44,328 bases of DNA from NCBI RefSeq assembly GCF_009498735.1, contig NZ_ML762448.1, forward strand, positions 1-44,328. The letters run 5' to 3'. Positions 14,023 to 23,610 of the stretch are shown here, piece after piece. This stretch comes from Gracilibacillus oryzae (GTDB taxonomy: Bacteria > Bacillota > Bacilli > Bacillales > Amphibacillaceae). Made by a program: the position numbers and the translations under genes. Under the pieces are notes generated by a model, which saw only the letters and a program-made list of their open reading frames with translations, was not told the origin of the DNA and made no database searches. The number at the start of each line of letters is the position of its first letter. Position 1 is the stretch's first letter.

Positions 14023-15141
14023 ATGAGAAAATTATATTGTATGCTGTGTTTGGCCGTCATTACTATGTTATTACTGGCAGGTTGTAATAGTAATGGTGCT
14101 GGTACTGCCACTGATGGAACGAAGGATGAATCTGCCGGTTATGAAGAAGTTACAACATTAGATTTAGAAGGTCCAGTCACAGGCATGAACTTTTCCCTGG
14201 ATGAAGATGGGAACACCATGTTATGGGGAGAAAATGACGGTGGTATCGGAGATGACTTGAGACGTAATGTATGGGTTGATGGAGAAGTGAAAGAGCTTGA
14301 TATCGAAACATGGGATCAGTTTACCACGATGACCAAAACAGGTCACCTTGTCAATGGAGTGGTGAATTGGGATGCTAGTGTAGAAGAAAGGCATTCTATT
14401 GCAGAGTATGATCCGATTATCGATCAAACGAAAAAATTCACGGCCCATAATGATCGGGATGACATATTGCTGCCAGGTCACGGTACATATCTTCAGGATC
14501 CAAGGACATACATTCACACAGATACAAATCCGAACAATGAAGAAGCCAAGGTATATCTCTGGGATATAGACAACAATGAATTTACAGATTTGGATTTTCT
14601 TGAAGACATAAAGAGTAATGCCGGGGAATTAACTTCCTATCCACACTATTATTTAAATAAAGATGCATCGAAGGTTTATGCAACAGTATTAAAAGAGGGG
14701 ATATTTTCTTATGATATCGCATCAGGGGAAACAGAGACTTTGCTGAAGTCAGAGGAAGTCATGCCGCAGGGGAATGTTACAACAATGCTGACATCTGATG
14801 AAAAGCATCTTATCTACTATACCAATAATGGAGAAGACTTTGATTTTACCTATTATGCTCTAGATCTGGAAACAAATGAACCAATGGAGCTTGGAAAGGG
14901 GACTAGTGTGTTTACACTTTCCAATGGTAATGTTGCTATCGTTGATGAAAATAAAGTAAATCTTTATGATTTTGAGACAGAAAAACTGGAAACCCTTCAT
15001 GAAATTGAATTAAATGAAGACCAAAGCCTTGATAATGTAACGGTAAGTTTAGATGGCAGCACCATAGCCTATGGGTACACAACAGAGGGGGAAGAAGATC
15101 AAGAGGATACATCTTATATAAGCATCTTAAGCAATAAATAG
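14023..15141 (+). CDS. Lipoprotein with beta-propeller-like repeats
   Basis: The 372-residue product starts MRKLYCMLCLAVITMLLLAG, then Cys: a clear lipobox (LAGC), so it should be lipid-anchored on the outer face of the membrane. The mature part is acidic and has repeated motifs such as SLDEDGNTMLWGENDGG, LTSDEKHLIYYTNNG and SLDGSTIAYGYTTEG, resembling TolB/WD40-like propeller blades. I recognise no named family. ATG 14023 is preferred because AAAGGAGA ends right before the ATG at 14017. A sigmaW-type promoter upstream suggests an envelope-stress link. Confidence 0.78.
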   Translation: MRKLYCMLCLAVITMLLLAGCNSNGAGTATDGTKDESAGYEEVTTLDLEGPVTGMNFSLDEDGNTMLWGENDGGIGDDLRRNVWVDGEVKELDIETWDQFTTMTKTGHLVNGVVNWDASVEERHSIAEYDPIIDQTKKFTAHNDRDDILLPGHGTYLQDPRTYIHTDTNPNNEEAKVYLWDIDNNEFTDLDFLEDIKSNAGELTSYPHYYLNKDASKVYATVLKEGIFSYDIASGETETLLKSEEVMPQGNVTTMLTSDEKHLIYYTNNGEDFDFTYYALDLETNEPMELGKGTSVFTLSNGNVAIVDENKVNLYDFETEKLETLHEIELNEDQSLDNVTVSLDGSTIAYGYTTEGEEDQEDTSYISILSNK

Positions 15142-15244
15142 TCAGGAGACATAGGTAACCTTGTAAGGCAGAGAATATTAATGTTGGGATTGTTTTTAAG
15201 ACTTTCATCAATAGTTTATAACATTGGTGTCAGTCTTATTTTTA

Positions 15245-15272
15245 TTGAAAAAATGGAAAAATTATCTATATT
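15245..15272 (+). promoter_or_regulatory. Candidate promoter of the DoxX-like gene
   Basis: TTGAAA (15245-15250), 16 bases, TATATT (15267-15272). Confidence 0.45.
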
Positions 15273-15333
15273 AATATGTTTGAATCTCACCTGGAATGGT
15301 TATGTAGAGAGTAAATAGAAAGGTGGTTTACAT

Positions 15334-15717
15334 ATGATAGTATTTATCCGAACCTTATATTCACTTCTCTTACTATGTACAGGTATTATGCATTTTGTCT
15401 GTGAACGCAACTTCCTAAGAATGGTCCCGAAGATTCTCCCATTTCGACGGTTTATCGTATTAGTTTCAGGTATATTTGAATTCATATTTTCGGCCTTCCT
15501 CTGGATAAGAAAAGGTCAGGAAATCACTGGAAAGTTGTTAGCGTTATTTATGATCGCCATTTTTCCGGCAAATATTTACATGGCTGTGAACATGATTTCG
15601 TTCAAGCCAGACAAAAAAGCCAATCCCTTGCTTCAATGGCTACGGCTGCCGATGCAGCTTCCGTTAATAATCGCAGCATTAAAACTGGGGAAAAGAAGTA
15701 ACAGGGGCACAATCTAG
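15334..15717 (+). CDS. DoxX-like small integral membrane protein
   Basis: The 127-residue protein has four hydrophobic segments (about residues 3-22, 38-57, 68-88, 103-120) and the DoxX-like layout, with LYSLLLLCTGIMHFV at the start and LALFMIAIFPANIYMAVNM in the third helix. The start follows AAAGGTGG. It has no operon partner; a GC-poor hairpin follows at 15707-15732. The function is unknown; DoxX-type proteins are often linked to thiol or redox metabolism. Confidence 0.72.
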   Translation: MIVFIRTLYSLLLLCTGIMHFVCERNFLRMVPKILPFRRFIVLVSGIFEFIFSAFLWIRKGQEITGKLLALFMIAIFPANIYMAVNMISFKPDKKANPLLQWLRLPMQLPLIIAALKLGKRSNRGTI

Positions 15718-15732
15718 TTGATGAGGTTGTGC
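15707..15732 (+). terminator. Weak terminator after the DoxX-like gene
   Basis: GCACAATC (15707-15714) pairs with GGTTGTGC (15725-15732); the tail is TATATATATT rather than a T run. Confidence 0.4.
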
Positions 15733-15842
15733 TATATATATTATTGAGCTTAATAAGAAAAACAAAATTTCACACCAGTTTTATATGGTTTTGGTGACTG
15801 CGACTGGAATTAGTAATTTCTGTTTATCTGCTTTGAAAAAAA

Positions 15843-16427
15843 TTAATCCAGCACATTTTTTCGCTTTTGATAACGAGTAACTTTTTCTCGATTTCCAAAA
15901 ATCTTCATTGAACACCATTTCCGCCTTCCTCTTGTATCCATAAATAATAAAACACAATCCGGATTGGCACAGTGATGCATGTTAGATAACTTATTTTCAG
16001 CATAAAGCGTGAGAGCATCATAAGCTAATACTGCAATCAAAGCATCCTCCGACCTGCCAACTGGTCTTGCTATCAATTGATTCTCTTTCAATTGATAAGT
16101 AAATGGGGCTTTTTTTATTTGAGCTTCAAGATTTTTGATCCATTCATCATCAGGTTCCTTTCCATCCGCGAAATCTTCGTACGCCTTACGCAAAGAAGAG
16201 CGAATGTTTCTCATTAGCGGCAATGCCTCCAAAGCCCATTCTTTCACATTACCTGAAATTTGCTGTTGGGATAAGTAGCCCTTTTTGATCAGTGTATCTA
16301 TCCATTGGATTAAGTCATCTGCTGAAGTCAGTAAATCAATACGTGCTCCATTACGAACTACTTCTGTATTGACAAGATCTAATGACAGATGACCAGAGAA
16401 AAGGGGGAATTTTATTTTTTCTTCCAT
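15843..16427 (-). CDS. CGNR/ABATE-type transcriptional regulator with altered zinc finger
   Basis: The 194-residue protein has an N-terminal ABATE (DUF1470-type) domain, starting with FPLFSGHLSLDLVNTEV, and a C-terminal CGNR-type finger. The ligands Cys153, Cys158 and Cys172 are present (CANPDC, WCSM). The fourth position reads FGNR instead of CGNR: Phe177 replaces the expected Cys, encoded by a plain TTT. The basic tail REKVTRYQKRK probably contacts DNA. The gene is divergent from the DinB gene, and repeated AGGTTA/TAACCT half-sites lie between them. ATG 16427 follows AAGGAG. Confidence 0.82.
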   Translation of the reverse strand: MEEKIKFPLFSGHLSLDLVNTEVVRNGARIDLLTSADDLIQWIDTLIKKGYLSQQQISGNVKEWALEALPLMRNIRSSLRKAYEDFADGKEPDDEWIKNLEAQIKKAPFTYQLKENQLIARPVGRSEDALIAVLAYDALTLYAENKLSNMHHCANPDCVLLFMDTRGRRKWCSMKIFGNREKVTRYQKRKNVLD

Positions 16428-16454
16428 CGAAAACTACTCCTTAAAAATTTTTAC

Positions 16455-16533
16455 TAACCTATTATAACACGCTTGACAGGTTAATTGAAAACAGATATAT
16501 TATTAACCATTAAGACCAACTTTATGAGGTTAG
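16455..16533. promoter_or_regulatory. Divergent promoter region with AGGTTA half-sites
   Basis: On the plus strand TTGACA (16473-16478), 17 bases, TATATT (16496-16501) is a near-consensus promoter for the DinB gene. On the minus strand TGTTATAAT (plus 16461-16469) is an extended -10 for the CGNR gene. TAACCT at 16455-16460 and AGGTTA at 16478-16483 form an inverted repeat over both promoters, and AGGTTAG recurs at 16527-16533. They are candidate binding sites of the CGNR regulator. Confidence 0.6.
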
Positions 16534-16611
16534 TTGACTCGCGTTTATTTTTATTACACTAATAACGACCCTTAGTTAGCTCAGAGCATAATAAAAAGAG
16601 GAGTGGTTGTA

Positions 16612-17079
16612 ATGGAAAATTATCTTATTAACCAGTTAGTGATTGTAAGAGAAAATACGATTAATTTGGTGAAAGGTATGGAAGAAAACACGAGTGAACT
16701 TGTACCGGAAAAGCTGAATAATAATATTAAGTGGAATTTAGGACATATTTATGTAGTTGGTGAGAAATTCTTATTCCAGATTGCAGAAGAAGAAGCAAAT
16801 ATTCCATCTAATTATTCTGCATTATTTAATCCTGGAACAAGTCCAAGTGATTGGAAACAAGATCCTCCATCCCTTGATGAGTTAACTGGTTTATTAGAAG
16901 AACAGATAAACAGGTTGAATTCCGTTTTACCAGGGCAGTTAGATGACAAAGTGAAGAACCCTTATACCACTTCTACAGGGTTTACATTAACAACAGTGAA
17001 AGAATTCATTAGCTTTTGCCTATATCATGAAGGAATGCATTTTGGAGCAATTAAAAATATAAAAAAATTGATTAACTAA
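16612..17079 (+). CDS. DinB-family putative metal-dependent protein
   Basis: The 155-residue protein fits the DinB/YfiT four-helix fold. The metal triad is likely His45 (LGHIYVVGEKF), His139 and His143 (YHEGMHFGAI). Many members are thiol-dependent transferases or hydrolases, but no substrate can be named here. ATG 16612 follows AGAGGAG; the GTG at 16603 lies inside that site. It is divergent from the CGNR regulator, which probably controls it. Confidence 0.82.
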   Translation: MENYLINQLVIVRENTINLVKGMEENTSELVPEKLNNNIKWNLGHIYVVGEKFLFQIAEEEANIPSNYSALFNPGTSPSDWKQDPPSLDELTGLLEEQINRLNSVLPGQLDDKVKNPYTTSTGFTLTTVKEFISFCLYHEGMHFGAIKNIKKLIN

Positions 17080-17095
17080 TATTTTTGAAACATGA

Positions 17096-17125
17096 AGGCG
17101 AACGGTGAGAGGTGGTTCGTCTTTT
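17096..17125 (+). terminator. Terminator after the DinB gene
   Basis: AGGCGAAC (17096-17103) pairs with GTTCGTCT (17115-17122) with one wobble pair, followed by T residues. Confidence 0.65.
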
Positions 17126-17202
17126 AATATACTTTTTTATATTATTTTTGACAGGTGTCATGATCTGCCTGCATTAATGAGTAAAATATTTAGTTTAGAA
17201 AC

Positions 17203-17267
17203 TTGATTCCATGATTATTTAATGGTAAAGTAAATAGCACGCAGGTAAATCGTAATCATTTCGTTTT
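17203..17267 (+). promoter_or_regulatory. Promoter with Zur box (box 1)
   Basis: TTGATT (17203-17208), 17 bases, TAAAGT (17226-17231) form a plausible sigmaA promoter. Just after the expected start lies AAATCGTAATCATTTCG, continuing to 17267. It is an inverted repeat centred on 17257 with 8 of 10 arm positions matching, very close to the B. subtilis Zur consensus TCGTAATNATTACGA. It suggests zinc-dependent repression of the gene at 17318. Confidence 0.72.
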
Positions 17268-17317
17268 GTGAATCTGGCGTTACATTTCAAGATAGCATGT
17301 CTAGAAAGGGTGCTGAA

Positions 17318-17680
17318 ATGAATAATTACTTGAATAGCATTTTCCTTGAAGCAATTCTAAATGACTTTTCTGAGAAGGAAAGATTACTATATAAATCTGT
17401 GATAGAAATGGAAGACGAGCTGGCAGAAAGTGCGTTAACACCAGACCAATTCGTTAATCATCTGAGAATTGATTCACCACATAAGAGAGTCGCTGAACAA
17501 TATGATATGACATTATTGGACCTTATCACAATATTAGAAGAGATGGAAGAGGAAGTTGGAAGAAAATTAGAGGAAATGTTCGCCTCAGTAAAATGGATTG
17601 ATTATACGAAAATGGTATATAGCAAAACAGGAGAAAATAATAACAGTAAATTATTCTATGTAACTTTTCCTAATACATAG
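17318..17680 (+). CDS. Unknown protein behind a Zur box
   Basis: I do not recognise this 120-residue protein. It is acidic and largely helical (FSEKERLLYKSVIEMEDELA; LLDLITILEEMEEEVGRKLE). Residues 55-80 (SPHKRVAEQYDMTLLDLITI) could be a helix-turn-helix. There is no signal peptide, membrane segment or Cys pair. ATG 17318 is chosen because AGAAAGGGTG lies at the right distance; the ATG at 17297 precedes that site. The Zur box 50 bases upstream and the zinc-response operon downstream suggest a role in zinc limitation. A coding gene is likely from length, start signals and amino-acid texture. Confidence 0.65.
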   Translation: MNNYLNSIFLEAILNDFSEKERLLYKSVIEMEDELAESALTPDQFVNHLRIDSPHKRVAEQYDMTLLDLITILEEMEEEVGRKLEEMFASVKWIDYTKMVYSKTGENNNSKLFYVTFPNT

Positions 17681-17833
17681 TTGTCCCCTGGCCTGGTGAA
17701 AGAGGGGATAAGCACAAGCTGGTTGTTCAAAGTTTACAAACTGTCTATTTCTATGCAGCTTAAACAGGAATGATTTCGATTTGTTACGATCATTACACAG
17801 TGGCGATTTAGCATTCAAAAAAATTTCAGATTT

Positions 17834-17854
17834 AAATCGTAATGATTACGTTTT
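17834..17854 (+). promoter_or_regulatory. Zur box (box 2) before the zagA operon
   Basis: AAATCGTAATGATTACG (17834-17850) continues with TTTT. It is a palindrome centred on 17844 with 9 of 10 arm pairs intact and is almost identical to the Zur consensus. A weak promoter (TTGTTA 17781-17786, GATTTA 17805-17810) lies upstream. The box lies 278 bases before zagA and is the best regulatory evidence that the operon responds to zinc starvation. Confidence 0.87.
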
Positions 17855-18131
17855 TTGCTGCTATCTTCCCATATTTTATTGTGGGAGTGATTCGTAAAAG
17901 GATATGGGAGAAGAACTGTTTCCACTCACTCCATATCTTCATTACCTTACTTATAGCCTTTTACATGGAGAGGTATTCCCTTTTGCTTAAAAGGAGTGCT
18001 CAAACAATTTATATACAGGCAATGTCTGTTTATATCATCATCTGTATAGCTGCTGGCAATCTTGATTACCTTGATGTTATTTTAGCCATCATTTTTCAAT
18101 ATGATTTTTAGAAAATTGGAGGGGAATTTTG
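17855..18131 (+). other. Long leader between Zur box 2 and zagA
   Basis: About 275 bases separate the Zur box from zagA. The segment near 17866-17936 has several mutually competing complementary pieces: CTTCCCATAT near 17866, TGTGGGAG near 17880, GATATGGGAG near 17899 and CTCCATATC near 17928. A CCCTTTT/AAAAGG hairpin lies near 17978-17995. An 89-codon frame (17842-18111) starts inside the Zur box without a ribosome binding site and is probably not a gene. A structured leader or a decayed gene are both possible. Confidence 0.4.
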
Positions 18132-19328
18132 ATGAAGAAAATACCTGTTACAGTATTAAGTGGTTATCTGGGGGCAGGAAAAACAACGCTTCTAAACTAT
18201 ATCCTTAATAATCGTAATAATTTGAAGGTCGCTGTGATTGTAAATGATATGAGCGAAATTAATATTGATGCAGATTTGGTCGAAAAGGGAGGGCATTTTT
18301 CCCGGATAGAAGAGAATCTGGTGGAGATGTCAAATGGATGTATCTGCTGTACGTTACGAGAAGACCTGCTGATAGAAGTGGAAAAAATCGCGAAGGCAGG
18401 CAATGTTGATTATATTGTGATCGAATCTACAGGAATTTCGGAGCCTGTACCTGTTGCTCAGACTTTTTCCTATATTGATGAGCAGCTAGGTATTGATCTT
18501 ACTCAGTCCTGCCGTCTTGACACTATGGTGACTGTCGTGGATGCCTATCGTTTTTGGCATGATTATGAGTCTGGTGACAGTCTGCTTGATCGGAAGCAGG
18601 CGGTCGGGCAGGCAGATGATCGTAACCTTGCAGATTTATTAATAGATCAAATCGAGTTTTGTGATGTTCTTTTATTAAATAAATGTGACATGGTAACAGA
18701 AGAGCAGCTGGATGCATTAAACAGAGTTATTCAAACATTGCAGCCCGAAGCGAAGATTATTCGTACAACATTTGGGGAGGTAGATCTGGCAGAGATTTTA
18801 AACACTCATCGATTTAATTTTGCGAAAGCCAGCCAATCTGCCGGGTGGCTGAAAGAATTAATGGCAGGTCCAGAAGAGCATACACCGGAAACAGAAGAGT
18901 ACGGCATCAGCTCATTTGTATATAGACGAAGGCTTCCTTTCCACTCTCAGCGGTTTTACGATTGGATCAGACAGATGCCGTTCGCAATTGTGCGGGCCAA
19001 AGGAATTGCATGGTGTGCAACAAGAAATGAATTAGCACTCCTTCTTTCTCAGGCTGGTCCGTCAGTTTCTATTGAACCAGTATCTTATTGGGTAGCTTCA
19101 CTGCCAAAGGAGCAAAGAGAACATACCATCAGGCAGAATCCCAATATATTACATGATTGGGACAATGAATACGGGGACAGGAAGACCAATCTAGTCTTTA
19201 TTGGAACTGACCTTGAAAAAGAAACGATAATCAGCGAACTGGATCAATGTCTTCTTACACCAGACGAAATGGATGAAGAGTGGTCTGAGATGGAAGATCC
19301 GTTTACTTGGCAACTCGCAGCACATTAA
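18132..19328 (+). CDS. zagA: Zur-regulated COG0523 GTPase (ZagA/YciC-like zinc metallochaperone)
   Basis: COG0523 G3E GTPases deliver zinc to client proteins under zinc limitation; B. subtilis ZagA (YciC) is the Zur-controlled example and supports FolE. The 398-residue product matches ZagA over its length: Walker A GYLGAGKT (11-18), the metal-binding CxCC motif Cys70-Ile-Cys72-Cys73 (NGCICCTLRED), ESTGISEP, and guanine-specificity LNKCD. The C-terminal domain has FVYRRRLPFHSQRFYDWI. ATG 18132 follows TTGGAGGGG. It is the first gene of a five-gene operon behind Zur box 2; dcd starts 16 bases after its stop. Confidence 0.93.
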   Translation: MKKIPVTVLSGYLGAGKTTLLNYILNNRNNLKVAVIVNDMSEINIDADLVEKGGHFSRIEENLVEMSNGCICCTLREDLLIEVEKIAKAGNVDYIVIESTGISEPVPVAQTFSYIDEQLGIDLTQSCRLDTMVTVVDAYRFWHDYESGDSLLDRKQAVGQADDRNLADLLIDQIEFCDVLLLNKCDMVTEEQLDALNRVIQTLQPEAKIIRTTFGEVDLAEILNTHRFNFAKASQSAGWLKELMAGPEEHTPETEEYGISSFVYRRRLPFHSQRFYDWIRQMPFAIVRAKGIAWCATRNELALLLSQAGPSVSIEPVSYWVASLPKEQREHTIRQNPNILHDWDNEYGDRKTNLVFIGTDLEKETIISELDQCLLTPDEMDEEWSEMEDPFTWQLAAH

Positions 19329-19343
19329 AAGGGAGGTGCAGCA

Positions 19344-19892
19344 ATGATCCTTTCAAGCCAGACTATTCTTGAAAAGTTAGAAAATGAGGAGATAACTATC
19401 AAACCATTAAACCGCTCGAATGTGCAGCCAGCGTCAGTAGATTTGACACTTGGCAATCACTTTATGATCGTGAATGATTATCAAACAGATAAACTGTCAA
19501 TGAGAGAGAAAGCAACTTATCAGGATATTTATATTGGAGATCAAGAGACAATTATGATACCTCCACATTCGTTTATGCTTGCCACAACCAAAGAGTGGAT
19601 TAAGCTGCCAAATGACTATACTGCGTTTGTTGAAGGAAGAAGCTCGATTGGCAGAATGGGATTATTCGTACAGAATGCCGGCTGGGTTGATCCGGGATTT
19701 GAGGGCAGGATTACCTTGGAGCTGTATAATTCAAACCGTGCTCCGATTGAATTGATTGAAGGATGGAGAATTTGTCAGTTAGTAATTGCCCAAATCGATC
19801 AGCCGACAGATCCTTATAAAGGAAAGTATGCCGGCCAAGTGAGTACAACAGCAAGCCAGATTTATAAAGATGCAGAACAAAATTATCTATAA
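19344..19892 (+). CDS. dcd: dCTP deaminase, possibly bifunctional dCTP deaminase/dUTPase
   Basis: This 182-residue trimeric dUTPase-fold enzyme converts dCTP to dUTP, or directly to dUMP in bifunctional members, feeding dTMP synthesis. Visible motifs are MILSSQTI at the N-terminus, QPASVDLTLG, the phosphate-binding EGRSSIGRMG (99-104) and AGWVDPGFEGRITLELYNSN with the expected catalytic Glu126. Dcd uses Mg-nucleotide and no structural or catalytic zinc, unlike dCMP deaminase (ComEB) and cytidine deaminase. It sits in a Zur-box operon between zagA and zinc-free S14. AGGGAGGTG precedes the ATG. I cannot tell mono- from bifunctional activity. Confidence 0.92.
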   Translation: MILSSQTILEKLENEEITIKPLNRSNVQPASVDLTLGNHFMIVNDYQTDKLSMREKATYQDIYIGDQETIMIPPHSFMLATTKEWIKLPNDYTAFVEGRSSIGRMGLFVQNAGWVDPGFEGRITLELYNSNRAPIELIEGWRICQLVIAQIDQPTDPYKGKYAGQVSTTASQIYKDAEQNYL

Positions 19893-19920
19893 ATATATAG
19901 AAGGAAAGGTGATTTAAAAA

Positions 19921-20190
19921 ATGGCTAAAAAATCAAAGATCGCAAAGGAAAAGAAAAGACAGGCAATGGTAGCAAGATATGCGGAGCTGCGCAGAGAATT
20001 GAAGGAAAAAGGAGATTATGAGGCACTGAGAAAGCTTCCACGTGATTCTTCCCCGACCCGTTTAACAGGTCGTTGTGAGGTAACAGGAAGACCCAGAGGA
20101 TATATGAGAAAGTTCAGAATGTCCCGGATTGCGTTTAGAGAATATGCCCATAAAGGACAAATACCTGGTGTGAAGAAAGCAAGCTGGTAA
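19921..20190 (+). CDS. rpsN: Zinc-independent 30S ribosomal protein S14 (C- paralogue)
   Basis: The 89-residue S14 resembles B. subtilis YhzA/RpsNB. It is the long form without the two CxxC pairs of zinc-binding S14: only one Cys is present ([15 protein letters not shown]). The C-terminal [20 protein letters not shown] is diagnostic. In B. subtilis the C- form is Zur-controlled and replaces zinc-containing S14 so that new ribosomes can be made without zinc. Its place between dcd and the flavoprotein strongly supports the zinc-limitation reading of the operon. Confidence 0.96.
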
Positions 20191-20211
20191 GCGAAGGGAG
20201 TCTATTCGTAT

Positions 20212-21366
20212 ATGTATAAATGGATCATTATAGGCGGCGGGATTCAGGGATGCTGTGTGGCCACCCGCCTGCTGCAGAATAAAGTCAGCAAAGAAGAACT
20301 CTTAATCATTGATCCACATCCTGAACCAATATGGATGTGGCGAACATTGACAGATAGAATAGGGATGGCTTATTTAAGATCTCCATCCGTCCATCACATC
20401 GCCGCCGATCCATACAGTTTGAAGAAATATTCGCGATCAAACGACTATGCGAAAGCCTTCAAAGGAAACTATTCCAGACCGCGATTGGATATGTTTAATC
20501 AGCACAGCTTAGATGAAATCGACAAGGCAGGCGTCCATTATTGCTGGAAGCAAGGGACTGTGAATGGACTATCCTGGTCTAAAAATGATTGGAAAGTAAG
20601 GATGTCCGGCAACCAAGTGGTCAAGGGTGAGCGTGTCGTGCTGGCATTAGGTGTGAATCAGGAACCTCATTATCCAGACTGGGTATCCGAGTATAAGGCT
20701 AGTGATGCTGTCAGTCATATTTTTGATTTGGATAAACCTTTGCCAGATCAAGGGGATGTTATCATTCTCGGAGGAGGCATGACAGCAGGACACCTTGCCA
20801 ATACATTATCAAAGCAGGAAACGATTAATTCGGTCCATTTAGTAAAGCGGCATTCAATCAGAATCCATAAGTTTGATAGTGATCCTGGCTGGCTTGGACC
20901 GAAATACTTAACCAAATATTATCAAACAGATTGTTATAAAAAACGACGGAGCCTTATTCAACAGGCTAGAAACAGGGGATCCATGACGAGAGATCTATAC
21001 TTGGAGTTGAACAGGCAATCAGTACAAGGAAGGTTAAACCTTTATACCGGAGAGATTGAAGAGGCAAAGCTAATTGATGGAATGATCGAGTTAATGATGA
21101 ATAATGGAGAAATAGTTCGTGGTCATTCATTAATTTTAGCGACGGGAGCAGAACTGGCTTTTCCGGGGAAAGAATGGATCCAGCCGGTTATTGACCAATT
21201 AGCACTTCCCTGTGCACCTTGTGGCTTCCCTATTGTTTCACGATCACTAGAATGGAAAGCAGGGCTCTTTGTTGCCGGGGCACTGGCAGAATTAGAAATT
21301 GGCCCTGTTTCAAGAAATATTGCAGGCGCTAGAAAAGCAGCGGAGCGCATTGCGCAAAATGCTTAG
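20212..21366 (+). CDS. Two-dinucleotide-fold flavoprotein (FAD/NAD(P)-binding oxidoreductase)
   Basis: The 384-residue protein has an N-terminal FAD-binding Rossmann motif IIIGGGIQGCCVATRLL, a second nucleotide site VIILGGGMTAGHLAN near residue 185, and LILATGAELAF near the end. This is the layout of the SidA/IucD-type N-hydroxylating monooxygenase and related FAD/NAD(P)-binding families. It lies 22 bases after rpsN and 12 bases before the second COG0523 gene, so it is an operon member. A role in zinc metallophore hydroxylation or in replacing a zinc enzyme is conceivable, but no biosynthetic partner is visible. Substrate unknown. Confidence 0.8.
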   Translation: MYKWIIIGGGIQGCCVATRLLQNKVSKEELLIIDPHPEPIWMWRTLTDRIGMAYLRSPSVHHIAADPYSLKKYSRSNDYAKAFKGNYSRPRLDMFNQHSLDEIDKAGVHYCWKQGTVNGLSWSKNDWKVRMSGNQVVKGERVVLALGVNQEPHYPDWVSEYKASDAVSHIFDLDKPLPDQGDVIILGGGMTAGHLANTLSKQETINSVHLVKRHSIRIHKFDSDPGWLGPKYLTKYYQTDCYKKRRSLIQQARNRGSMTRDLYLELNRQSVQGRLNLYTGEIEEAKLIDGMIELMMNNGEIVRGHSLILATGAELAFPGKEWIQPVIDQLALPCAPCGFPIVSRSLEWKAGLFVAGALAELEIGPVSRNIAGARKAAERIAQNA

Positions 21367-21377
21367 GAGGAATAGAA

Positions 21378-22556
21378 GTGTCAAAGAAAACACCCGTTAC
21401 TGTACTGAGTGGATACTTGGGGTCAGGAAAAACAACCTTATTAAATCATTTACTTCATAACAGGGAAGACCTTAAAATTGCAGTTATCGTTAATGATATG
21501 AGTGAAGTAAACATAGATGCTGATATGGTGAAACAAGGCGGTTTCAGCCGAACAGAAGAAAAGCTGGTTGAACTGCAAAATGGCTGTATTTGCTGTACGT
21601 TAAGAGATGATTTAATAAAAGAAGCAGAAAAACTTTCAAAGCTTGATATAGACTATATTGTAATAGAATCAACTGGAATATCAGAACCAATTCCTGTTGC
21701 CCAAAGTTTTACTTATGAAGATGAGGAACTTGGCATTAATCTTGGAGAAAACTGTCGTTTAGATACAATGGTAACAGTAGTGGATGCCAATCGCTTCTGG
21801 GATGATTATGGGTCTGGTGAAAGCCTGCTGGACCGAAATCAAGGAGCAGACGAGCAAGATGAAAGAGAAGTTATTGATCTTTTAATCGACCAAATTGAAT
21901 TTGCGAACGTAATTGTTTTAAATAAAACAGACTTAATCGAAAAAATCGATAGAGAAGAATTAAAAGCCGTCTTAAAGCAATTAAATCCAGATGCCCATAT
22001 TATCGAAACAAGTTATAGTCAGGTTCCACTGAAGTCTGTACTGAATACAGGCTTATTTGATTTCGAAAAAGCAAGTCAGGGAGCGGGTTGGATTAAGGAA
22101 TTAAACGAGGAGCACATCCCCGAAACAGAGGAATATGGAATCAGTTCTTTTGTTTACCGACGAAAAAAGCCATTCCACCCCGAGCGCTGGATGAAATGGT
22201 TAGAAGAATGGCCCGCAGGTATAGTTCGCGCGAAAGGTTTCTTCTGGTTAGCTTCCAGAAATAGTATAACTGGTTTATTATCACAGGCAGGAACCTCTCT
22301 TTCTATCCAGGGAGCTGGAGAGTGGGTAGCCGCTTATCCGGAACAGGAACAACAGGAGATATTCGAGGAGGATCCAGAGTTATACGCGCGCTGGGATCAA
22401 GAATATGGAGACAGAATGACAGAGTTAGTGTTCATCGGTATAGAAATGGATAAGAAAACTATTATTAACAGTCTTGATGATTGCTTGTTAACAGGTTTGG
22501 AAATGAAATTAGACTGGAATAAGCTTTATGATCCATTGCCAGCGTTTAGTGATTAA
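21378..22556 (+). CDS. Second COG0523 GTPase, paralogue of ZagA
   Basis: The 392-residue paralogue of the product at 18132 has Walker A GYLGSGKT, CxCC at Cys70/72/73 (NGCICCTLRDD), ESTGISEP and LNKTD. Conservation with its neighbour is high through the GTPase domain and continues into the C-terminal FVYRRKKPFHPERW part, so this is probably an old local duplication. It uses a GTG start at 21378 after AGGAGG. It is the last gene of the operon. Having two chaperones suggests different client proteins; one may serve a client encoded here. Confidence 0.9.
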   Translation: MSKKTPVTVLSGYLGSGKTTLLNHLLHNREDLKIAVIVNDMSEVNIDADMVKQGGFSRTEEKLVELQNGCICCTLRDDLIKEAEKLSKLDIDYIVIESTGISEPIPVAQSFTYEDEELGINLGENCRLDTMVTVVDANRFWDDYGSGESLLDRNQGADEQDEREVIDLLIDQIEFANVIVLNKTDLIEKIDREELKAVLKQLNPDAHIIETSYSQVPLKSVLNTGLFDFEKASQGAGWIKELNEEHIPETEEYGISSFVYRRKKPFHPERWMKWLEEWPAGIVRAKGFFWLASRNSITGLLSQAGTSLSIQGAGEWVAAYPEQEQQEIFEEDPELYARWDQEYGDRMTELVFIGIEMDKKTIINSLDDCLLTGLEMKLDWNKLYDPLPAFSD

Positions 22557-22728
22557 CGGTAAAATAGTGAAATATAACTAATTTTTACGGATAAACGAGA
22601 AGTTATCTTGATTTATTGTATCTCTCCCTTATTCGGAACGTTGGGAATGGTAAATGATGAGATATTCACCTATACAGAGGAGCAGGAATAGGCTAGTTGT
22701 AAAAAGGTTCGAAAATGGAGGAATCTGT

Positions 22729-23514
22729 ATGGGATACTATGTTACGGTGGAAAATGGTGTGAATTTATACCTGGAAGATATCAATTCTAAAGGTAATAAA
22801 ATAATTGTATTTCTACACGGCTGGCCGTTGGATCATAATCAGTTTGAATACCAATATAATGTTCTGCCTGGTATGGGTTACCGATGTATAGGAATAGACT
22901 GGAGAGGATTTGGAAAATCAGACAGTCCGGTCAGCGGCTATGATTATAACAGACTATCGGATGATATCCGAAAGATAGTAGAGGTATTACAATTAGATGA
23001 TTTTACTCTTGTGGGCCATTCAACAGGCGGGGCGATTGCCATTCGCTATATGGCACGTCATAACGGTTTAGGAGTATCGAAACTTGTTCTGATTGATGCA
23101 GCGGCTCCTACAGGGTTTACACAAGAGACGGCAAGTAAATTACTTGAAGAAACTTTACATGATCGTCCAAACATGATGCAGGGAGTAACTGATACCTTTT
23201 TCTTTCAATATATAACAAAGTCTTTTTCGGAATGGTTCTTGCAGATGGGGCTAAAAGCAGCAAGCTGGTCAACAGCGAATATCATTATGACATTAAGAGA
23301 TGAAAAGCTGTATGCAGACCTTCCTGGCATTCATGTACCTGTTCTCATCACACATGGTATCCATGATAAAGTTATTCCATTCTCACATGCTGAAGAGTTG
23401 GACAAAAGTATTCAAAATTCACAATTGGTTCCGTTTTTCTATAGCGGTCATGGGCTTTTCTGGGAGGAACATAATAAGTTCAATAGGCTGTTAATGCAAT
23501 TTATCGAAGCTTGA
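22729..23514 (+). CDS. Alpha/beta hydrolase, haloperoxidase/esterase-like
   Basis: The 261-residue serine hydrolase has the oxyanion region FLHGWPLDHNQF, DWRGFGKSDSP, the nucleophile elbow GHSTGGAI, an acid residue near HGIHDKVIP and the catalytic His in YSGHGLFWEE. It belongs to the non-haem haloperoxidase/arylesterase branch; the natural substrate is unknown. ATG 22729 follows TGGAGGAA; the upstream ATG at 22654 has no such site. It lies 172 bases after the zinc operon and is probably independent. Confidence 0.88.
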   Translation: MGYYVTVENGVNLYLEDINSKGNKIIVFLHGWPLDHNQFEYQYNVLPGMGYRCIGIDWRGFGKSDSPVSGYDYNRLSDDIRKIVEVLQLDDFTLVGHSTGGAIAIRYMARHNGLGVSKLVLIDAAAPTGFTQETASKLLEETLHDRPNMMQGVTDTFFFQYITKSFSEWFLQMGLKAASWSTANIIMTLRDEKLYADLPGIHVPVLITHGIHDKVIPFSHAEELDKSIQNSQLVPFFYSGHGLFWEEHNKFNRLLMQFIEA

Positions 23515-23610
23515 TCCCCACAAGCATAACATTCATATATTATATATATTAGAAGTAAATTTTACTGTAAAATAGGAACAGATGAGTTGTAAATTAATGG
23601 AGGTGGGGGA

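Follow-up and report, generated by a model that had tools for sequence, protein, structure and literature searches.

Why would an operon headed by a predicted binding site for the zinc regulator Zur carry a gene for a deoxycytidine triphosphate (dCTP) deaminase? The question is raised by a 44,328-nucleotide stretch of the Gracilibacillus oryzae genome (contig NZ_ML762448.1; G000:C25:1-44328 in our numbering), hereafter the window, whose host genome spans 4.63 Mb in 53 contigs. An earlier note, made from the letters alone, had read this gene, dcd, as a zinc-sparing source of deoxyuridine monophosphate (dUMP) under zinc starvation. The accessible part of PMC10733785 classes the deoxycytidine monophosphate (dCMP) deaminases as zinc enzymes that have no kinship with dCTP deaminases. 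We consider it likely that dcd is a Zur-controlled, zinc-free and non-orthologous stand-in for the zinc-dependent dCMP deaminase, ComEB.

Within the window, five plus-strand genes follow each other in the order zagA1-dcd-rpsN(C-)-flavoprotein-zagA2, with successive gaps of 15, 28, 21 and 11 bases (Table 1), matching the earlier description of five tightly spaced genes behind a near-perfect Zur box. Upon scanning the window with the 21-base Zur pattern AAATCGTAATNATTACGATTT, which we take to be the consensus of the B. subtilis literature, we found exactly two matches at up to three mismatches and none in 100 shuffles: the main box ahead of zagA1 and a second box which, like the gene behind it (c2), is additional to the note's list. 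A shorter 15-mer matched the window five times at three mismatches against a shuffle mean of 2.66, which is not above chance, and genome-wide at up to two mismatches it gave 35 matches against 55 for the reversed pattern, i.e., noise. At up to one mismatch it left four places in the genome, the main window box among them. The second of these lies ahead of a ZnuA-like gene, with a weaker second box 23 bases off, and of the other two (L006 and L009; contigs 5 and 36), one stands beside a gene for a solute-binding protein and one before a gene for a MATE-like transporter, these genes being named by eye from their frames.

The host genome holds both a Zur and zinc-dependent counterparts of the operon's products. 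Among its three Fur-family genes, one (L292) is 46% identical to a Zur from a zinc island and the others 29-30%; L292 adjoins znuB- and znuC-like frames (transporters again named by eye). The window S14 has a single Cys and has lost its CxxC pairs, bearing out its description as zinc-free, and contig 18 carries a second S14, which is of the zinc type and has two CxxC pairs. A PF00383 search of the host returned five zinc deaminases, which from sequence and neighbours we read as TadA, ComEB, GuaD, Cdd and RibD. ComEB carries the zinc-deaminase motif and sits between comEA- and comEC-like frames, and the zinc-dependent enzyme on which the earlier proposal hinged is thus encoded here.

The window Dcd scored 182.1 bits against the dCTP deaminase model TIGR02274 (cut-off 92.8), and its closest solved relative is PDB entry 4xjc, with 57% identity over 176 positions. 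We take 4xjc to be the bifunctional dCTP deaminase of Bacillus halodurans, and we take Ser, Arg, Asp and Glu to be the active-site residues of this enzyme family; among 97 aligned Dcd rows, S100, R104 and E126 were present in 97 and D116 in 96. The HAE...PCxxC zinc-deaminase motif was absent from all 97 rows, and the window protein contains one Cys and two His. From its kinship with 4xjc, the window Dcd is probably a bifunctional dCTP deaminase:dUTPase. To our knowledge, the B. halodurans enzyme has not been described as zinc-controlled; both routes, ComEB included, reportedly coexist in that host. A phage origin of the window gene was rejected: 63 phage records matched, all below 60% identity, with the best-ranked match at 38% (best 20 of the 63).

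Is the zinc company of dcd peculiar to this genome? We searched for Dcd in three overlapping draws of 159 family, 397 order and 398 class genomes, counting as DcdB-type the matches with about 50% identity or more and E below 1e-50. This yielded 25, 51 and 17 matches, together 84 genomes, and the next matches, broken copies aside, had E values of 3e-25 or weaker. The counts leave out G140, whose dcd is split in two, as well as G426 and G504, where dcd pieces are degenerate, and weaker fragments. (In G140:C1:3110364-3133953, loci L294 and L295, the two pieces lie ~23 kb apart, with no clear integrase by eye in between.) For each of the 84 genomes, up to 20 kb around dcd was taken, and dcd was called zinc-linked if a COG0523 GTPase, an S14 of this type, FolE2, ZnuA or Zur lay within 3 kb or, alternatively, if a Zur box with at most one mismatch lay within 300 bases upstream. 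Zinc linkage was found in 62 of the 84 genomes, across 16 family codes (through neighbouring genes in 59 and solely through a box in 3), so that the placement is not unique to the host. The 22 unlinked genomes comprise 14 of f35, 5 of f25, 2 of f17 and 1 of f53. As a control we took 20 ComEB loci, each belonging to a linked genome and chosen because its coordinates were listed; none showed zinc linkage (0/20).

The Zur boxes followed the same division. At up to one mismatch, the 59 gene-linked loci held 80 boxes, spread over 46 loci, versus none in the 22 unlinked and none in the 20 control loci, and 150 shuffled palindromes run on the linked set gave a mean of 0.23 and a maximum of 5. The recurrence in related genomes for which the earlier note had proposed to search, of dcd near COG0523 or zinc-free S14 genes together with Zur boxes, was therefore found. 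In same-strand runs built from mechanical frames, a box with at most one mismatch stood ahead of dcd in 41 of the 62 linked loci, dcd being the first gene of the run in 6 of those 41, and a two-mismatch box did so in 8 more. Seven class-level genomes of family f56 show, by eye, a promoter-like stretch and then a box-like site ~30-44 bases before dcd, recognisable in five and decayed in two, and a gene 28-32% like the COG0523 GTPases follows dcd. A separate named collection contained 19 dcd loci. Bacillaceae accounted for 11 of them (Halobacillus, Oceanobacillus, Priestia abyssalis and a Bacillus metagenome-assembled genome), and a zagA1 relative lay directly ahead of dcd in all 11. The 8 other loci (SAR324, Lambdaproteobacteria, Lachnospiraceae, Eggerthella kin and Oscillospiraceae; some on short contigs) contained none of the other four window genes.

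The neighbourhood varies in composition. In the neighbour survey (ARRANGEMENTS), which covered 8 kb around dcd in the 61 linked loci where a dcd frame was called, COG0523 genes were the most frequent (56 loci), followed by S14 (31), an oxidoreductase and a FeoB-like transporter (24 each), SufU-like genes (12), FolE2 (11), the flavoprotein (8), c2 and Zur (7 each) and ZnuA (6). None of these types occurred within 8 kb in 21 unlinked loci. In 9 of the 62 linked genomes, FolE2, its family confirmed as PF02649, is no more than 3 kb from dcd. Could dcd then be a passenger of mobile zinc islands, with no zinc-related role of its own? The islands do appear to move: the window dcd and zagA1 group with their counterparts in Halobacillus and in a few Oceanobacillus instead of with those from the host's own genus, and seven plasmid records gave a DcdB match (six Priestia and one Staphylococcus), four of which were viewed. 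On two Priestia megaterium plasmids, rpsN and dcd are divergent with boxes in between, followed by folE2. A mobilizable plasmid of Staphylococcus arlettae (21.8 kb; NZ_CP094807.1; L286 and L293) carries a zinc island in the order GTP-binding protein, zinc-binding ATP-binding cassette protein, oxidoreductase, transporter and dcd match, the last reaching the final base of the record. The start of this record holds a further GTP-binding protein, and its boxes are of two mismatches only. Against such a passenger, the immediate neighbours of dcd form 19 label combinations across the 16 family codes, through all of which dcd was kept; mere hitchhiking is therefore less favoured. A box also stands ahead of dcd as first gene in the 6 loci mentioned above, and in f56. 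Overall, we regard a passive role as quite improbable.

We then asked how dcd linkage relates to the presence of ComEB. The host ComEB was searched in the order draw and in 38 further genomes (33 with intact DcdB, G140 and four without), taking E below 1e-60 as the mark of an orthologue. An orthologue was found in 56 of the 62 linked versus 6 of the 22 unlinked genomes (Fisher 5e-8), i.e., linked genomes mostly hold both routes. A tree built from 97 Dcd rows requires 6 changes of linkage and 7 of ComEB, with only 3 independent pairs on well supported (starred) branches and 6 on all branches. In family f35, none of the 14 DcdB genomes has a ComEB orthologue and dcd is unlinked in all of them, and G262, the sole f35 genome of the draw without DcdB, has ComEB; counted as one lineage, f35 hence suggests that DcdB can take over the route to dUMP. 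Two f35 genomes (G231 and G363) gave only three PF00383 matches, read by length as TadA, RibD and Cdd. Among genomes scored as lacking ComEB, divergent dCMP-deaminase-like proteins with the zinc motif occur in G194, G233, G265, G444, G486, G505 and G717, and G192 and G385 contain frames with the motif. As a side observation, dcd lies beside queuosine-like genes, judged by eye, in 10 of the 14 f35 loci (L171, L174, L179-L181, L183 and L185-L188).

The f35 genomes, together with two linked f62 genomes that lack a ComEB orthologue, would also fit a dcd that is an ordinary housekeeping source of dUMP, lying among zinc genes by coincidence. We hold this to be very improbable, as 56 of the 62 linked genomes retain ComEB and the division of the Zur boxes, 80 in the gene-linked loci and none in the unlinked ones, argues against coincidence.

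The main rival accepts the same regulation and gives the enzyme another duty. Here, dcd would belong to the Zur regulon to counter folate stress and not to replace ComEB: with FolE starved of zinc, methylene-folate and deoxythymidine monophosphate (dTMP) would fall and the ratio of deoxyuridine triphosphate (dUTP) to deoxythymidine triphosphate would rise, and a bifunctional Dcd would raise dUMP, remove dUTP and so spare DNA from uracil. The frequent COG0523 company (56 of 61 loci) fits this idea, since B. subtilis ZagA is said, in the accessible part of PMC13339975, to sustain FolE. It would furthermore account for linked genomes without ComEB, and in a search for the trimeric dUTPase family in the host the sole match was dcd itself. 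The host, however, encodes two dimeric dUTPases, which rules out Dcd as the genome's only dUTPase, and dcd also occurs beside FolE2 (9 of 62), which should already relieve a folate defect. The rival moreover needs a dUTPase activity of Dcd, here predicted from kinship. We judge it unlikely, though the least unlikely of the alternatives.

Several observations weigh against the stand-in role that we prefer. The association of linkage with ComEB was not significant on the tree, whose bootstrap had yet to stabilise; six linked genomes (G194, G233, G265, G527, G717 and G765) lack a ComEB orthologue and six unlinked genomes keep one. Nor can f35 as a whole be said to lack such an enzyme, given the divergent proteins of G486 and G505 and the motif frames of G192 and G385. 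The two dimeric dUTPases offer the host another zinc-free way to dUMP, and it is therefore less certain than the earlier note suggests that cells low in zinc would strictly require thymidine. In the window itself, the main box lies 277 bases upstream of zagA1 with an 89-residue frame in the interval, and a promoter scan of this gap gave no sigma-70-like promoter on the plus strand; seven relatives (L070-L072, L082, L083, L088 and L091), by contrast, have a box immediately ahead of zagA1, at ~20-90 bases from the matched zagA1 start. Of the 62 linked loci, 12 have no box in the dcd run and 1 was not called, although in two of the 12 (G600 and G756) a two-mismatch site before dcd was seen separately, hidden by an early start call. 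An unannotated dcd match on a Priestia filamentosa plasmid (CP136438.1; L289) has neither zinc neighbours nor boxes. Finally, dcdB of B. halodurans is reportedly expressed during ordinary growth, and thymidine and deoxycytidine are reported to repress it. Of the earlier proposal of a zinc-sparing dcd, the recurrent linkage and the presence of ComEB in the host thus stood, the association with ComEB did not reach significance on the tree, and the role itself is one that we infer.

The kind of replacement proposed here has precedents. In B. subtilis, FolE2 and S14 are the last Zur genes to be derepressed and replace failing zinc proteins, as described in the accessible part of PMC5007448, and the closest likeness is to FolE2, the GTP cyclohydrolase IB of that regulon, which as a non-orthologous enzyme replaces the zinc enzyme FolE at severely low zinc. 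FolE2 feeds the same thymidylate reaction and is a near neighbour of dcd in the 9 linked genomes given above; unlike FolE2, dcd belongs to another pathway step and fold, and its zinc response is predicted. The zinc-free S14 (rpsNB) is a zinc-free copy of an essential zinc protein, encoded in the same operon as dcd, but S14 is a paralogue swap, whereas Dcd is unrelated to ComEB. The same logic and the same COG0523 company mark the Zur-linked paralogues of Haas et al. 2009 (PMC2770081), whose accessible text treats nine replaced zinc-enzyme families of gamma- and beta-proteobacteria. The words 'deaminase' and 'dcd' are absent from the main text of that paper and of a B. anthracis Zur study (PMC6336718), as far as these texts were accessible, and a literature search covering few subscription journals gave, among the matches listed, no link of a dCTP deaminase to Zur, zinc limitation or COG0523. 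Hence, the zinc-sparing kind is known, and we found in print no member of it from the dUMP or pyrimidine pathway.

Table 1. Features of the zinc operon and its leader in the window, in order of position.
Feature	Coordinates	Strand	Basis or remark
Second Zur box AAATCGTAATCATTTCGTTTT	17247..17267		2 mismatches; 29 bases ahead of first possible c2 start
c2, zinc-island protein of unknown function, 127 aa	17297..17680	+	Inner ATG at 17318 also possible
Main Zur box AAATCGTAATGATTACGTTTT	17834..17854		1 mismatch in 20 specified positions
89-aa open frame starting inside main Zur box	17842..18111	+	No Pfam family
zagA1, COG0523/CobW GTPase with GCICC motif	18132..19328	+	PF02492 and PF07683 above cut-off
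dcd, DcdB-type dCTP deaminase, 182 aa	19344..19892	+	TIGR02274; best PDB relative 4xjc
rpsN, zinc-free (C-) ribosomal protein S14, 89 aa	19921..20190	+	Family search, Cys content
FAD/NAD(P)-binding flavoprotein of unknown function	20212..21366	+	PF13454, 50.8 bits
zagA2, second COG0523/CobW GTPase	21378..22556	+	PF02492 and PF07683; 59% identity to zagA1

The remaining features of the operon and its leader call for some comment on naming. Both zagA products contain GCICC and the two CobW domains, which places them in the COG0523/CobW family, and they score 532.9 and 531.4 against the NCBIfam ZigA model NF038288, below its curated cut-off of 600; 'COG0523 GTPase' is therefore the safe name and 'ZagA', as used in the earlier note, holds by resemblance. 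The flavoprotein has no PDB relative by sequence; a 41% relative is divergent from dcd, with a Zur box in between, in three f6 genomes (L162, L163 and L170). For c2, no Pfam family matched, and relatives were found in 7 Halobacillus loci and near dcd in G073 and G351; c2 is likely a Zur-regulon gene of unknown function. The 89-residue frame between the main box and zagA1 is probably not a gene, as comparison with the frames of 11 loci gave no relative. A riboswitch or other known RNA in the leader was discarded, with no Rfam match up to E = 1 across positions 15000-23600. In the islands, a Pyr_redox_3 oxidoreductase repeatedly accompanies a FeoB-like Gate-domain transporter, often behind Zur boxes (e.g., L021 5976-8763), and the two are possibly a metal importer. 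A NifU_N (SufU-like) gene also occurs in zinc islands (L029 7313-7750) and adjoins a COG0523 GTPase in Halobacillus.

We suggest that the stand-in role of dcd would play out as follows. When zinc falls, Zur would leave its box and the operon would be derepressed, whereupon the zinc-free S14 would be supplied to new ribosomes and the COG0523 GTPases would direct the remaining zinc. DcdB, being zinc-independent, would deaminate dCTP, probably straight to dUMP, and thus bypass the zinc-dependent ComEB and Cdd, so that dUMP would continue to thymidylate synthase. DcdB would then be the pyrimidine counterpart of FolE2, which provides folate for the same thymidylate reaction, and of the zinc-free S14, and its position beside S14 or FolE2 would suit the late-derepressed class of Zur genes. 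More tentatively, and with somewhat less than even confidence, we propose that the Bacillota share a portable thymidylate module, free of zinc and under Zur control, in which DcdB would supply the dUMP and FolE2 the folate. In zinc starvation, dUMP would then be made at the level of dCTP, by the zinc-free DcdB, instead of at that of dCMP, by the zinc enzyme ComEB, and plasmids would spread the kit.

Restriction of zinc is a stress often met, and islands of this kind are carried on plasmids as well. If dcd indeed acts in this way, zinc-starved cells are predicted to switch their dUMP synthesis from dCMP to dCTP, DNA precursor synthesis would join the processes that are protected in zinc starvation, and the presence of two routes from cytosine deoxynucleotides to dUMP in some Bacillus relatives would be explained.

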